IMG/VR virus record: IMGVR_UViG_3300034112_000349
Location: 1 to 26,489 of that record
From: a virus
Strand: one strand, 5' to 3'
Length of the DNA stretch: 26,489 nt
A model generated the notes under the pieces. It saw only the letters and a program-made list of their open reading frames with translations, was not told the DNA's origin and made no database searches. The position numbers and the translations under genes were made by a program. Positions 4,546 to 9,870 of this stretch are shown in pieces; the first letter of the stretch is position 1, and each line of letters begins with the position of its first letter.

Positions 4546-6504
4546 TTATAATCCTATGTATTTTATTGTTTCTACCGAATCATTATCCTCATCTATAACC
4601 TCAATTAGTTGTATAGAATTTACTTCACTATCGTATGTATTCATAGTTAGCCTGTTGATTAAAAACTTTTTATCATTATATGATAAAGCATTACTACTTG
4701 CATCTTGTACTGTATATGTTTTATCTAAATATACTAAGCCATTTAGTGATTTATAATTACCTAAATCTCCTTCTAATGTTGCAATATTTCTATTAAACAA
4801 ATTAGAATATTGTCTAATTAATAAACTATGTAAGTCATAAAATTGTTCTGCTGGTTTATCATATCTGTACCAATTTATTAATGAACCTCCGAAAAATCCA
4901 GTCAGAAACAAATTAAATAAAGCACCAAAATTATTATTACCACCATCCCAACTTGTAAATGGAGGATGATATAATCCATATGGTAAGTCTATTGACTTAA
5001 CAATGACATTATCTTCTCCAATTTGTCTTTTTACGTCTAAGGCAGTAATTTGATTTGGAGATTGAGTTACTTTTATATTTTTTATATCCCCTCCTACATA
5101 AGTAGCAGTATTAGCAACAAATGTTACAATTATATGACCAAAATATACATTTAAAAAAGGACTTGTATCTGCAACTAATCCTAATGGTATATTAATTGTT
5201 TTAGACTCGTATATCAATTCTTTTGCAGCAGTTACATCAATAATTGTAGATGTTGTACTCCATTTAGAATCATTTCTTAAATAATAAGAAACATAACCTG
5301 TTGAAGTTGGTTTATATAACTCTATTCTTACTCCAATTTTATCACCAACTGCTAATGCTTGATATTCAAAAGACAAAGTACCACCAGGACCAAATATTAA
5401 TGGAGCATAATGTTCTTTAAAAAATGGAGGTACAACGTTTGTTAATTCAGAAAGATTAAAACTTGAAGAACCCTTTTTTACAGTATAATAGTTAAATTCT
5501 GAATCATCATTTGTAACCAATGTGACAATACCTGTTCCTAATGTTGTTTTCTTCCAACCAACAGCTTCTCCTGAAACCACTTTTTTAAAGTTACCATTGT
5601 TTATCATATTTTTAACATATGTAAATGGTGTATTTGATTCTACAACTTGATAACCCTTTCTTACTATTTTAATTTGAGAATTATTTATAAAATGAACATT
5701 ACCATCTGTATATGGCTGTATATCGATTATGTTGTCAAGTGTTCCAAAAGATATAACACTAGGAGTAGTAGAAATTGTATATTTTGTATAATATACAGTT
5801 GAAGCCATATCATTTATTGGTAATATATACCAATCTCCATTTGATTGAAAAAGTCTACAACCAAATGATTTAACAATGTTATCTAATATAGTATAAAAAT
5901 CTACATCAATAATATCTCTTATATATATAGCAGATTGAGCAAATGGCTCATATTGACCACCATCTCCCCTATCTTGCATACCTGCAGCATAATAAGAACA
6001 ACAAGCATATAAATTTGAGGAATTCTCGTAATTTATATTACTTAAACAAGTTCCTATTACATCTATTAAAGGTGTAACTGTATTAATGCTATTATTGGTT
6101 GTATAATTATTATATTTAATTAATGACAATCCGTCAACGCACACAATATTTACTTGTTGATTACCAGTTGTAAAACCTATGTTTATATAATCATTAAATA
6201 AGAACCCTTTCCATATAATGTTTAATCCTTCTAATAATTCTACATAGTACAATGTATCATCAGAATTTAACAAATCTGGAAACTTCTCATAGTCGTCTTC
6301 TGTAGATATTAAAAACGAAACATTAAGCTGTGATGAAATAATGCCACCAATAGGATCTTCTTCATTAGAGTTTGGTTGCAAGACAACGCTAGTCGCTTCA
6401 TAAGTCTTAACTAATCCAACATAATCCTTTTTATAAATCTTTACAATTTGGACTGTTGAATCTCTTAATATTTGTGTTAATGTATAATTTAATGCGTATG
6501 CCAT
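4546..6504 (-). CDS. Baseplate/tail-tip protein (hub- or Dit/Tal-like), unknown family
   Basis: A 652-residue protein whose start overlaps the tape measure stop by one base, so translation is probably coupled. The position right after the tape measure is where distal tail and tail-associated lysin/hub proteins are encoded in siphoviruses. Visible features: an N-terminal beta-rich region (QIVKIYKKDYVG; SQLNVSFLISTEDDYEKFPDL; LYYVELLEGLNIIWKGFLF), then VNIVCVDGLSLIKY near residue 125, FGCRLFQSNGDWYILPIND near residues 215-233, and a long beta-rich middle (about 330-470) resembling a carbohydrate-binding jelly roll. No lysozyme or peptidase motif is evident. A baseplate hub or Dit-like scaffold is the best guess from position. 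Confidence 0.6.
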   Translation of the reverse strand: MAYALNYTLTQILRDSTVQIVKIYKKDYVGLVKTYEATSVVLQPNSNEEDPIGGIISSQLNVSFLISTEDDYEKFPDLLNSDDTLYYVELLEGLNIIWKGFLFNDYINIGFTTGNQQVNIVCVDGLSLIKYNNYTTNNSINTVTPLIDVIGTCLSNINYENSSNLYACCSYYAAGMQDRGDGGQYEPFAQSAIYIRDIIDVDFYTILDNIVKSFGCRLFQSNGDWYILPINDMASTVYYTKYTISTTPSVISFGTLDNIIDIQPYTDGNVHFINNSQIKIVRKGYQVVESNTPFTYVKNMINNGNFKKVVSGEAVGWKKTTLGTGIVTLVTNDDSEFNYYTVKKGSSSFNLSELTNVVPPFFKEHYAPLIFGPGGTLSFEYQALAVGDKIGVRIELYKPTSTGYVSYYLRNDSKWSTTSTIIDVTAAKELIYESKTINIPLGLVADTSPFLNVYFGHIIVTFVANTATYVGGDIKNIKVTQSPNQITALDVKRQIGEDNVIVKSIDLPYGLYHPPFTSWDGGNNNFGALFNLFLTGFFGGSLINWYRYDKPAEQFYDLHSLLIRQYSNLFNRNIATLEGDLGNYKSLNGLVYLDKTYTVQDASSNALSYNDKKFLINRLTMNTYDSEVNSIQLIEVIDEDNDSVETIKYIGL

Positions 6505-8729
6505 TATATTAAGCTAATATTTTGTCCTTTAAGATTTGATGCCTTTTGTGCTCTATTTACTGATAAAAGTAAATCTTGACCTCTAAGTACAAATGTACCG
6601 CTTCCTCCTCCACCTATCATAGATTTTAATTTATCTAAAGGAGCAATAACTTCAGGGTTATTTTGTGCACCTGGATATTCTCCTACAAGACCCATAGTTG
6701 GTCCTGATACAATACCACCATTAGCAAAAGCAGTAGCTTGATTATTCTTCATTGTACTTTTTAAAGCTGAACCAGCCGCAACAGCAGCAATACCTGCAGC
6801 AAGAGCTAAAGGCCAGGTTTTAGGATTTTTAAATAGTTCTTGTACAGCTCCATTAGTTATAGCAAAAGCTATAAGAGCTTTACCAATTGAAGATAAACCA
6901 TCCGCTAAAATTGTACCTATTTTACTAATATCAAATTTACCTCCAGCAATCATTTCTCCTAATTGTTCAGCAAAATTTGTAACTATACTTGTATTTAAGT
7001 TAGTTAGTATGCCATTTATAGTATTAACTGTATCTTGCCATGTAATGGTATAATCTTTTACTCTATCTTTTGATCCTTCAATAGCAGCATCAACCCTAAG
7101 CAAAGCATCATCTATTTTATCAAACTGTTCAGCAGTCCAACCTCCTACTGATGCTAAATCATATAAGCTATTTTTATAATTCTCTAATATCTTTATTCTA
7201 TCTGCTGCTGTAGCATTCCCAGACAAGTTTGCAATTTTCATTGCAACATCTGATTCTATTTTTAAAGCATCTAATGAATTTTGTAATTGTCTATTATCAA
7301 TAGCCAAAGCATCTTTTGCCATTTGCTCGGCAGTCTTTCTAGCTTCTTCAATTTGCTTGTTGTTATAGTATGCATCAATTTTATCCATTTCTGCTCTATA
7401 AGCAGCATAGTATGTTGTAGAGTCTGTATAACCTGCATTTCTCATTATTTGCAAGTTCTCTGCTAACTTTAATCCAACTTCGTATTCTTTTTTACCTCTT
7501 TCGTCTAGTGTATCAATATAGGCTTTGGTTTCTGCTTCATTCGCCTTTTTTTCTTTCTCTAATTGCTCCTTCCTTATCTCTTCAGGAGTTTTACCTTTTG
7601 TTACTTTTGGTGGAGTAGTATCTAAATTTGTAGCATCTCCATTTACTATTTGAGCCTCAGTATTTTCATTTAATTTATCTGTATAAGCTGTTATAATATT
7701 TCTTGATGTAGCAATTTGTTTAGCTTGTTTATTAAAAGCAGCAGTAGCAATATTTGAAGATGCCTTTGCACCGTCAAGGCCAGATGTAACAAATTGATAG
7801 GCAGTGCCCATAAAACCTAAGTTTTTTACAACTTCTTCACCTTGTTCTTTTTCTAATTTTAATATCTTTGCTTCTTCTTCAGCTATCAATGAAGCATAAG
7901 CTGTTGCTCTAGCTTTTCTAATTAATGCGTTAGATATTTTTTTATAAACTTCTGCTAATTTATCACCATCAGTTATATCAATTTTTTGTAATTCTAAATT
8001 ACCTTTATATTTTTCTTTTAGTTGTTCAAGTGCAGTTGTTCTATTTTGTGTGCTTTGTGTAGTATCGTTAATTATTTTAATTAATGATTGGTCGGTAGCT
8101 ATTTGTGATCTAGCTTGACCTTCATTATCAGCTACAGCTTCGTTTAACTTTTTATTAGCTCTTGCTAAGTCGTCAATGCCATATATTAATTGAACTATTT
8201 CCTTTTCATAGGCAGTAGTAATTGCAATCAATGCTGAAAATCCTAGATAAATAGCTCCAGTAGCAGCAGCAAAACTTCCAACTAATGCTGGTAAGTTATT
8301 TTGAATACCTCTAAATCCGTATGGTAAATCTTGTAAAATTAATGACAAACTCATCATAGTCTTGTTAGAAGCACCCATCTTTTTACTCGATTTTTCAACC
8401 GCAGGTCCTACCGCATCTAATGATTTGCCTAATTGATCGTATTGAGCTTTAAGCTTTTGTACATGAGGATTCATGGCCTGGAAACCTAAAGACATTAGAT
8501 TTTCCATAGCATTTTTAAGAACCTTCATCTTATCTGCAACTACTGTAGTTGAGTTGCCAAATAATTCAGCACTTCCTTCTATTTTATTAAACTCTCTGCT
8601 AACATTAGCAGAAATCTTCCTAATGTCAGATTCAAAAGTAGTAGCAGTTTTACTTAATTTTAAAAATGATTCTTCAGCTTGTTTAAAGTCTGCTGTAACC
8701 CTAATTTGTAGTAAATCTTCTCCTGCCAT
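6504..8729 (-). CDS. Tape measure protein
   Basis: At 741 residues this is the largest gene in the window, placed directly after the tail-assembly chaperone pair. The N-terminus (QIRVTADFKQAEESFLKLSK) and helical Ala/Lys/Glu-rich body are typical. Residues about 145-172 (LPALVGSFAAATGAIYLGFS) form a hydrophobic segment. A second hydrophobic stretch near the C-terminus (PLALAAGIAAVAAGSALK) precedes the common tape-measure ending FANGGIVSGPTMGLVGEYPG with NPEVIAPLDKLKSMIG. The protein sets tail length and is threaded into the host envelope during DNA ejection. With the usual ratio of about 0.15 nm per residue, the tail would be near 110 nm. No peptidase or transglycosylase domain was recognised. 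Confidence 0.9.
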   Translation of the reverse strand: MAGEDLLQIRVTADFKQAEESFLKLSKTATTFESDIRKISANVSREFNKIEGSAELFGNSTTVVADKMKVLKNAMENLMSLGFQAMNPHVQKLKAQYDQLGKSLDAVGPAVEKSSKKMGASNKTMMSLSLILQDLPYGFRGIQNNLPALVGSFAAATGAIYLGFSALIAITTAYEKEIVQLIYGIDDLARANKKLNEAVADNEGQARSQIATDQSLIKIINDTTQSTQNRTTALEQLKEKYKGNLELQKIDITDGDKLAEVYKKISNALIRKARATAYASLIAEEEAKILKLEKEQGEEVVKNLGFMGTAYQFVTSGLDGAKASSNIATAAFNKQAKQIATSRNIITAYTDKLNENTEAQIVNGDATNLDTTPPKVTKGKTPEEIRKEQLEKEKKANEAETKAYIDTLDERGKKEYEVGLKLAENLQIMRNAGYTDSTTYYAAYRAEMDKIDAYYNNKQIEEARKTAEQMAKDALAIDNRQLQNSLDALKIESDVAMKIANLSGNATAADRIKILENYKNSLYDLASVGGWTAEQFDKIDDALLRVDAAIEGSKDRVKDYTITWQDTVNTINGILTNLNTSIVTNFAEQLGEMIAGGKFDISKIGTILADGLSSIGKALIAFAITNGAVQELFKNPKTWPLALAAGIAAVAAGSALKSTMKNNQATAFANGGIVSGPTMGLVGEYPGAQNNPEVIAPLDKLKSMIGGGGSGTFVLRGQDLLLSVNRAQKASNLKGQNISLI

Positions 8730-8734
8730 TTTAT

Positions 8735-9016
8735 CTAAACTTTAATATTATTATACTTTTTTAATACCTCTTGCAGTTCATCATTAGTCATAACCCTCTG
8801 CTTCACAAAGTTACGATTATCGCAGTCAAGTGGCAAAAGCTCACTTGCTTGTATCTTTTTGCCTTTTGGTAGTTGCATATTTACTAAAATAGTAGTCTGC
8901 CATCTTGCTCTTAACCATTCTTGTTCTTCTTTATGACGATATCCATACCAAACAAAATCTAATTCCGCCATCGTCATCTCCCAAAACAAATGGGGAAGCA
9001 CTTGGCACTCCCCCAT
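8735..9016 (-). CDS. Tail assembly chaperone, T-type extension reached by -1 frameshift
   Basis: Seen alone this is a 93-residue frame with an ATG at 9016. The same frame stays open upstream through 9017-9055 into the A9 run at the end of the preceding gene (added residues K-LEWIDIERYT), without an in-frame stop. Family knowledge: in many siphoviruses two ORFs between the major tail protein and the tape measure are joined by programmed frameshifting to give a long chaperone (lambda G and GT). Here a -1 slip would give a fusion of about 226 residues. The WEMTMAELDFVWYGYR segment resembles the short Trp-rich C-terminal modules of such extensions. Separate initiation at 9016 is possible but less likely to be the main product. 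Confidence 0.75.
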   Translation of the reverse strand: MGECQVLPHLFWEMTMAELDFVWYGYRHKEEQEWLRARWQTTILVNMQLPKGKKIQASELLPLDCDNRNFVKQRVMTNDELQEVLKKYNNIKV

Positions 9017-9042
9017 TGTATATCTTTCAATATCAATCCACT

Positions 9043-9414
9043 CTAATTTTTTTTTACATCAGAACTCTTCCCCTTCTTTACAGGTTCAGCTTCTATGCCA
9101 CTATTCATGCTTTCAGATAAAGCTGTAATAATGTTTTGAAATTTATCACTTGCTATACCACCAATATCATCAATCCAATCACAAACTTCTAATTCTGTAA
9201 TATTAGGTGTCTTACCTTCCTTATATAAAGGATATTCAGCAGCAGCTAATATTAAGTTAGTCATCGCATCTAATTGACTTGATCCGCTTAATGCTTGTCC
9301 TATTTCAGATGGTGCGATTCCTTGAAGTTGACAGAATCTTTTTAAAGACCATGTACAAAACCTCATAGGTATCTTAGTCCCATCGCTTAGGGATAGTTCG
9401 TATTGTCCTCTCAT
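9043..9414 (-). CDS. Tail assembly chaperone, G-type (unshifted product)
   Basis: A 123-residue protein following the major tail tube. It has the size and mixed helical composition of gpG-like chaperones, which coat the tape measure during tail assembly. Key blocks: YELSLSDGTKIPMRFCTWSLKRFCQL near the N-terminus and an acidic middle ELEVCDWIDDIGG. The gene ends GTA AAA AAA AAT TAG, so the stop lies immediately behind a run of nine A residues on the coding strand. That run is a natural -1 slip site leading into the frame at 8735-9016. Ribosomes that do not slip make this short form, which is normally the more abundant one. Confidence 0.75.
   Translation of the reverse strand: MRGQYELSLSDGTKIPMRFCTWSLKRFCQLQGIAPSEIGQALSGSSQLDAMTNLILAAAEYPLYKEGKTPNITELEVCDWIDDIGGIASDKFQNIITALSESMNSGIEAEPVKKGKSSDVKKN
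9047..9055 (-). other. Programmed -1 frameshift slippery site (A9)
   Basis: Nine consecutive A on the coding strand include the heptamer A AAA AAA in the zero frame, two codons before the TAG stop at 9045-9043. Slipping back one base enters a frame that is open to 8735. About 30 bases further on, AATGGGGGAG (9017-9008) can pair with CTTCCCCATT (8998-8989) with one G-U pair. The spacer is longer than that of typical stimulatory structures, so its role is unsure. Confidence 0.7.
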
Positions 9415-9435: not shown

Positions 9436-9870
9436 TTATGCGTTAGTAGCCTGAGTTAATTGACCTTGTCCTGTGAAAGAAACAGAGTAAGTAACTGGAG
9501 ATTCCATATCAGCACTTATATCTAAACTTTCTACAAAAGCAGAACCAGACCAAATTAAATCACCTACTATCGGAGTGTTACCATTAACTGTAGTAAACTT
9601 TACAGTTACTGTAGTTCTTCCGTTTAAGGCAGAAAAAATATCTCCTACTACATAGCTTGTTCCTGTTGGCTCTACTGTAGCAAGACCATCTGTAGTTAAA
9701 GACCAAGAACGCAAACCTGCGATTTGATCAGCCCATCCACCACTTGATTTAGTTGTTGCATCTGGTAAGTCAGCACTTACTGTTAAAGAACATGATGTAG
9801 AGTGAGCTACAACTTCAGTTCCTACTAGAACTACTAGATTTGTACCATTAAAAATTCCTGTTGTTGGCAT
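9436..9870 (-). CDS. Major tail tube protein
   Basis: A 144-residue protein located between the tail terminator and the chaperone pair, the standard position for the tube subunit. It is beta-rich, with FNGTNLVVLVGTEVVAHS at residues 7-24, SWSLTTDGLATV in the middle, and TYSVSFTGQGQLT near the C-terminus. These are features of the TP901-1/lambda-V type tail tube fold. It forms stacked hexamers around the tape measure. The same fold appears a second time in the window, split by an insertion, at 3362-4534. Confidence 0.85.
   Translation of the reverse strand: MPTTGIFNGTNLVVLVGTEVVAHSTSCSLTVSADLPDATTKSSGGWADQIAGLRSWSLTTDGLATVEPTGTSYVVGDIFSALNGRTTVTVKFTTVNGNTPIVGDLIWSGSAFVESLDISADMESPVTYSVSFTGQGQLTQATNA

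Follow-up and report, generated by a model that had tools for sequence, protein, structure and literature searches.

A putative lambda G/GT-type tail assembly chaperone pair with a candidate -1 shift site on a run of nine A and a distant, nearly invariant hairpin

The window, by which we mean the whole 26489-base virus record analysed here, probably encodes a tail-assembly-chaperone pair of the phage lambda G/GT type whose two parts are joined by a programmed -1 shift on a run of nine A (A9); judging from sequence and comparison, we give this reading a probability of about 0.85. The features that we find there, and in relatives of the window, are the order of the genes, the -1 relation between a G-like gene (G) and a T-like frame (T), the A run with its in-phase A_AAA_AAA, coding in T ahead of its first ATG, and a hairpin of the sense RNA. 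Most ribosomes would yield the 123-residue G protein, and a minority would shift by -1 on A9, bypass the adjacent UAG and produce a G-T fusion of 226 residues. Within the fusion, the G part would be expected to act as chaperone of the tape measure protein and the T part to bring in the tube protein, and the hairpin would tune the frameshift event. It is probably the ribosome, rather than RNA polymerase, that slips. A lambda-type GT frameshift is in itself of a known kind, and the distant, hyperconserved hairpin is the unusual part.

The minus strand of the window carries a tailed-phage structural module with portal, capsid, connectors, tail tube, G, T and tape measure (Table 1). The two short open reading frames are flanked by a tube gene matching PF06199 and a tape measure gene matching phrog_1538, which is the gene order of the lambda type; the tape measure product also matches phrog_30292 (unknown function, E 1.1e-19). 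An open reading frame on the plus strand (8905-9120) was considered as a gene and rejected, being open in 25 of 221 related sequences.

Table 1 Features of the G-T region and its neighbours in the window.
Feature	Position	Strand	Basis or remark
Major tail (tube) protein	9436-9870	minus	PF06199 E 1.3e-10; phrog_1407 E 2.3e-25; upstream neighbour of G
G-like gene, putative tail assembly chaperone (123 aa, zero-frame product)	9043-9414	minus	Between tube and tape measure
A9 slippery run (candidate)	9047-9055	minus	In-phase heptamer A_AAA_AAA at 9055-9049
G stop codon TAG	9043-9045	minus	One codon 3' of the heptamer; TAG in 221/222 distinct sequences, L421 excepted
G-T junction peptide (predicted)	around VKKKLEWIDIER	minus	
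T-like domain, -1 frame (106 residues, starting at the run and ending at a stop)	8735-9055	minus	phrog_16333 (unknown function) E 7.9e-9
T-frame codons from the run up to the first ATG, LEWIDIERYT	9017-9046	minus	Start-codon scan and substitution pattern
12-bp hairpin AUGGGGGAGUGC-CAA-GUGCUUCCCCAU	8990-9016	minus	First T-frame AUG inside the stem; starts 32 nt 3' of the heptamer
Invariant TTGTTTTGGGA just 3' of the hairpin	8979-8989	minus	Invariant in all 39 aligned rows
Tape measure protein	6504-8729	minus	phrog_1538 (tail length tape measure protein) E 8.2e-7; downstream neighbour

The part of PMC5009743 that was available describes G-T frameshifting as widely conserved in long-tailed phages and as setting the ratio of the two tail chaperones, and an excerpt of PMC3711429 deals with an experimental test of the two tail-chaperone genes of another cluster, for which about 7% frameshifting is reported. 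As in phage lambda G/GT, to go by the same portion of PMC5009743, the window has T in the -1 frame after G and a slippery site near the end of G, in the same gene order, and the fusion would be expected from a minority of ribosomes. It differs from lambda G/GT in its A9 run, in a stop only one codon past the site, in a hyperconserved hairpin that begins 32 nt downstream, and in G and T products that lack a sequence match to named families above cut-off.

The G frame ends in GTA AAA AAA AAT TAG, and A9 is the sole run of nine or more A or T in the window; its heptamer has the X_XXY_YYZ form of classical -1 programmed ribosomal frameshifting (PRF) and is in phase. From the run the -1 frame is uninterrupted down to the stop at 8735, and the first ATG within it lies at 9016. 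A preliminary description of this DNA had proposed a -1 frameshift between two tail chaperone genes placed between tube and tape measure, on a run of nine A just before the G stop, with the -1 frame open through T and a fusion of about 226 residues. The profile matches of both neighbours bear out the location, the run (9055-9047) and the open frame are as proposed, and a recount of G through Val120 plus 106 residues gives exactly 226. In E. coli dnaX, a -1 frameshift occurs at A_AAA_AAG with a 3' stem-loop, together with a short spacer and an upstream Shine-Dalgarno stimulator. The window resembles dnaX in its in-phase A-rich heptamer and its strong 3' stem-loop; unlike dnaX, it has a spacer of 32 nt, and column counts indicate that the region upstream of the run is variable and holds no conserved Shine-Dalgarno sequence.

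To compare the locus with its relatives, we searched IMG/VR with G, T, tube and alignment queries, taking the best 80 loci per query, so that it was the nearest relatives that were sampled, and added further loci from a scan of IMG/VR for the hairpin pattern. Loci first recovered by a later T query enter none of the counts. The main comparison comprised 433 sequences, namely 432 loci (some from the same contig) and the window; ten were without a G match, and of the remaining 423, 409 were complete and 14 cut ones were dropped, which left 222 distinct G-T sequences. Within this set, T stays open at -1 to G behind a slippery A run near the end of G in 221 of the 222. The run is A9 in 202 of them, A10 in 19 and A8 in one (L421), which we excluded from every count over 221. 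Because the T queries relied on patterns in the peptide ahead of the ATG, and the pattern scan on the hairpin itself, the main counts were repeated on loci recovered with the G and tube queries only (232 loci, six of them cut, 165 distinct sequences); T is at -1 in 164 of these 165, and L421 is again the exception. That A9 recurs in many contigs argues that it is not a one-off sequencing slip. The comparison supports the programmed -1 change that had been proposed to join G and T, in that frame and run are both kept in 221 of 222 distinct sequences; a run of another length that fuses the two frames, which if met on resequencing had been named in advance as one of the findings that would count against the proposal, appeared across the family in L421 alone.

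The 10-bp stem suspected about 30 bases downstream of the run proved real: it forms a core at 9014-8992 that AUG/CAU pairs extend to 12 bp (9016-8990), and its distance from the heptamer is 32 nt, or 34 nt to the G-C core. The hairpin has a stability of -16.8 kcal/mol, and folding z-scores are -3.0 for a segment of 76 nt and -3.7 for one of 191 nt. Five forms of it occur in the 221 sequences. Two, found in 119 and 81 sequences, differ by a loop of CAA or AAA; a third, in 19 sequences, replaces the closing C-G pair with U-A and a nearby U-G with U-A; and two are single-sequence forms, one with G-C in place of a G-U pair and one in which C-A, a mismatch, takes the place of the closing pair (L369). 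Over 38 distinct rows, 99.8% of stem cells are paired, nine pairs are invariant, two vary on one side and one varies on both sides.

This invariance extends to synonymous positions. Mean synonymous entropy is 0.05 bits over T codons 10-21 (nine informative codons), as compared with 0.97 bits for the 60 codons of G and, elsewhere in T, 0.94 for the 39 codons from codon 22 onward and 0.38 for eight codons at 0-9, and the lowest value among 91 other nine-codon windows is 0.65 bits. The hairpin codons are equally invariant in the 164 sequences that were not picked by way of T or the hairpin. The proline codon CCC, which accounts for 0.5% elsewhere, is present in the hairpin in 221 of 221 sequences, and only 11 of 5000 protein-preserving synonymous shuffles fold as well as the hairpin does. 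Covariation is thin: there is one compensatory pair, with four cells changed on both sides, which may reflect a single event. Of 500 shuffles, none reached four such cells and 216 reached one such pair, and when the 3' partner was displaced by +2 the count was again one pair and four cells. In view of these controls, the case for a conserved RNA structure 3' of the site is built on the pairing percentage and on the near absence of synonymous variation, and not on covariation. We also considered an element of the DNA or of the antisense strand, and prefer a role in the sense RNA, since the antisense of the hairpin folds less well (-9.2 versus -16.8 kcal/mol); the wobble pairs fit the sense RNA only.

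Around the hairpin, a weak lower stem may form between UGUUUU (8988-8983) and AAGAUA (9026-9021); 93% of its cells are paired, and in some sequences three of the six pairs are lost, the only way in which these pairs vary. An AU-rich helix predicted within the spacer of the window is not conserved, two of its nine pairs being broken in 27 and 26 of the 38 distinct sequences, and so does not shorten the 32-nt gap. A long helix of UUAGARUGGA with UUUGUUUUGG that would enclose the spacer was likewise rejected, at -11.3 kcal/mol as against -15.6 kcal/mol for the stem alone, with the same outcome in four relatives. The invariant element 3' of the hairpin includes a leucine codon TTG that is a minor codon elsewhere (9%), and a search for a pairing partner of this element gave no convincing candidate.

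The spacer between a slippery site and its stimulator is usually 5-9 nt, and in a minority 11-15 nt, according to the portion of PMC5009743 at hand, and is given as 5-6 nt for prokaryotes in a section of PMC8915115. At 32 nt, the stem lies beyond the 5-9 nt, and up to about 15 nt, of classical -1 PRF, and it can for this reason be called no more than a candidate stimulator; a search of the open-licence literature brought to light no GT frameshifting in which we recognised such a distal hairpin. A reading that we regard as quite possible, if on balance not the probable one, is that the hairpin is no frameshift signal, and instead silences internal initiation at the T AUG, or paces translation or mRNA processing ahead of the tape measure gene. 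This reading is compatible with a frameshift on A9. It gains from the base of the stem, in which AUG is paired with CAU, and from a spacer too long for the classical stimulators treated in the passages of PMC5009743 and PMC8915115 cited above. It is weakened by the spacing to the A run, which is identical in 115 of the 115 hairpin hits that have enough upstream sequence (among the at least 117 pattern matches listed), although coding may fix that spacing through the protein sequence alone, and by an invariance so nearly complete that it seems to exceed what the hiding of a start codon needs.

A more speculative reading, which we think improbable, keeps the hairpin as a stimulator and lets it act at the length of a queue of ribosomes. 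An excerpt of PMC7544508 puts queued ribosomes in E. coli about 27 nt apart, and 32 nt is approximately one such spacing plus the bacterial spacer of 5-6 nt, a match of arithmetic only. On this account, the stem would make a leading ribosome pause after its own shift, with 6 nt still to go and the T-frame codon in its A site ending at 9023, and the next ribosome would be held with its A site within about one base of 9049, where the last AAA of the heptamer ends. The stem would then act on the trailing ribosome, and each shifted ribosome would raise the chance that the one behind it shifts, making the shift cooperative and the production of GT a matter of bursts set by ribosome traffic. The hiding of the AUG is the plainer alternative. 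Ribosome collisions reportedly alter frameshifting at bacterial recoding motifs, in work attributed to Smith et al. in PNAS in 2019. By comparison with those collisions, queueing would account for a roadblock having an effect from about one ribosome length downstream, and here it is the spacing arithmetic alone that points there. The window's family offers more than 200 distinct natural sequences in which an A9-A10 site is accompanied by a nearly unchanging hairpin, farther away than the spacers described. Should the hairpin act at 32 nt, the family provides a natural and compact test of the control of frameshifting by ribosome traffic in bacteria; if it does not act at that distance, its strict conservation needs another cause, such as the silencing of internal starts.

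A second family of junctions was recovered as the best 80 loci found with T of Cellulophaga phage phi10:1, which gave 44 distinct junctions, 41 of them with G resolved. T is at -1 in 40 of the 41, on A9 in 36, A10 in three and A11 in one; the one exception is phi10:1 itself (L504:10881-10905), where the run is A8, T lies at +1/-2 and the T frame contains an upstream ATG. Flavobacterium phage 11b also has T at -1 on A9. This second family and 11b share with the window a run of A9-A11 at the end of G, a T that is mostly at -1 and a homologous T domain. Unlike the window, they have a G that continues several codons beyond the site, equivalent codons that mostly show ordinary synonymous variation, and, in the sequences tested, no significant hairpin. 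At this place, structures as stable were obtained in 284 of 2000 shuffles for phi10:1, 144 of 2000 for phi18:1 and 1454 of 2000 for 11b, none of them significant, and six sequences of the second family likewise gave no significant structure (33 to 384 of 500 shuffles as stable). As far as this sample goes, the hairpin is particular to the window's family.

Were RNA polymerase to add or drop A residues on A9, a mixed pool of mRNAs would result and the fusion would be made with no ribosomal shift. Such transcriptional slippage is what the run length might lead one to expect, since the 9 or 10 A in 221 of 222 sequences reach the roughly nine or more that slippage calls for and are about as long as the RNA-DNA hybrid of 9-10 bp given in the consulted part of PMC5009743, and what the second family might suggest, as its run occupies different codon phases. 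The in-phase heptamer does not discriminate, because any run of nine must contain one. We consider slippage by the polymerase unlikely all the same: it is not evident what the conserved hairpin 32 nt downstream would do during transcription of the run, and the best-studied GT cases, as far as that part of PMC5009743 covers them, are ribosomal.

Whichever machine slips, T is very probably produced in the form of a G-T fusion, as judged from its codons ahead of the ATG. None of the 221 sequences has an ATG, GTG or TTG in the part of the T frame that extends from the previous stop to the TTA codon, and the peptide that follows is conserved: differences among the 221 sequences are nearly all synonymous or conservative (GAG/GAA, GAT/GAC with one GAA, ATT/ATA, GAA/GAG, AGA/AAA/CGT, TAT/TTT and ACA/TCA/TCG), to which two changes at one Ile codon are to be added. 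The absence of these three starts before a conserved peptide is what points to the fusion, and a change of frame from G is most simply the route to T. An AlphaFold2 model of T (mean pLDDT 81.1, pTM 0.54) places the first predicted helix at residues 6-15, across Met14, so that a start at the ATG would cut it. That T is instead a separate gene, translated with no fusion from the AUG at 9016 or from a rare start just upstream, we hold to be very improbable. The AUG is conserved in 221 of 221 sequences, and ATT and ATA codons precede it in the T frame, our scan for starts having covered ATG, GTG and TTG. Set against these points are the ten conserved codons ahead of the AUG, the helix that spans Met14, the burial of the AUG within the 12-bp stem, and nine T frames of the second family (22-28% identical), of which none has Met at that place, and which keep two residues of the peptide ahead of the ATG, Asp8 in nine of nine and Trp6 in seven of nine.

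In L421 (2990-3545), a run of A8 where similar sequences have A10 lets G and T read as a single frame, which reflects either an indel or homopolymer artefact or a genuine outright fusion. That the true run of the window likewise fuses the frames, with no programmed event, is a reading to which L421 and the variable run length of close Cellulophaga phages lend something, and which the -1 relation in 221 of 222 distinct sequences refutes at the level of the family, leaving it next to no probability. Among those phages, the run is A9 and T lies at +1/-2 in phi18:1 and phi12:1, and in the closely related phi17:1 the run is A10 and T lies at -1 (L503:13599-13660, L585:595-660, L586:589-640); such differences in run length and frame are due either to sequencing error or to a real switch.

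The G sequence matched no Pfam or PHROGs family at E <= 1, T matches PF09550 (Phage_TAC_6) at E 0.046, which is below the family cut-off, and a tblastn comparison with 50,697 phage records (E <= 0.01) yielded nothing for either; for T and the major capsid protein, no relative was found in genome contigs. An AlphaFold2 model of G (mean pLDDT 76.8) matches A0A8S5M2L5 in BFVD, whose annotation as a tail assembly chaperone we take at face value (E 7.6e-5, TMq 0.64), and a similarly ranked BFVD match carries the label tail tube protein. Against the PDB, neither the G model nor the T model has a match with E <= 0.001; the HK97 chaperone 2ob9 aligns with the G model over 88 residues (Z 3.3, rmsd 4.8) as the third of a set of weak rows, below two odorant-binding proteins. 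The assignment of G and T follows from position, architecture and frame relation.

Among isolates, the capsid and portal proteins best match those of Flavobacterium phage 11b and of Cellulophaga phages, with 27-36% of residues identical. A host among the Bacteroidota is a guess, because Microcystis and Moraxella phages have capsids that are almost as similar (about 32%) and the matches of the tube protein lie elsewhere, 97 of 100 records being from Enterococcus and Streptococcus phages. In four of the related loci (L244, L263, L309 and L329) the tube protein finds a best match of only 28-31% identity, and in the first three of these the tube-like match lies more than 4 kb away from the G-T hairpin and is perhaps a second tube-like gene.
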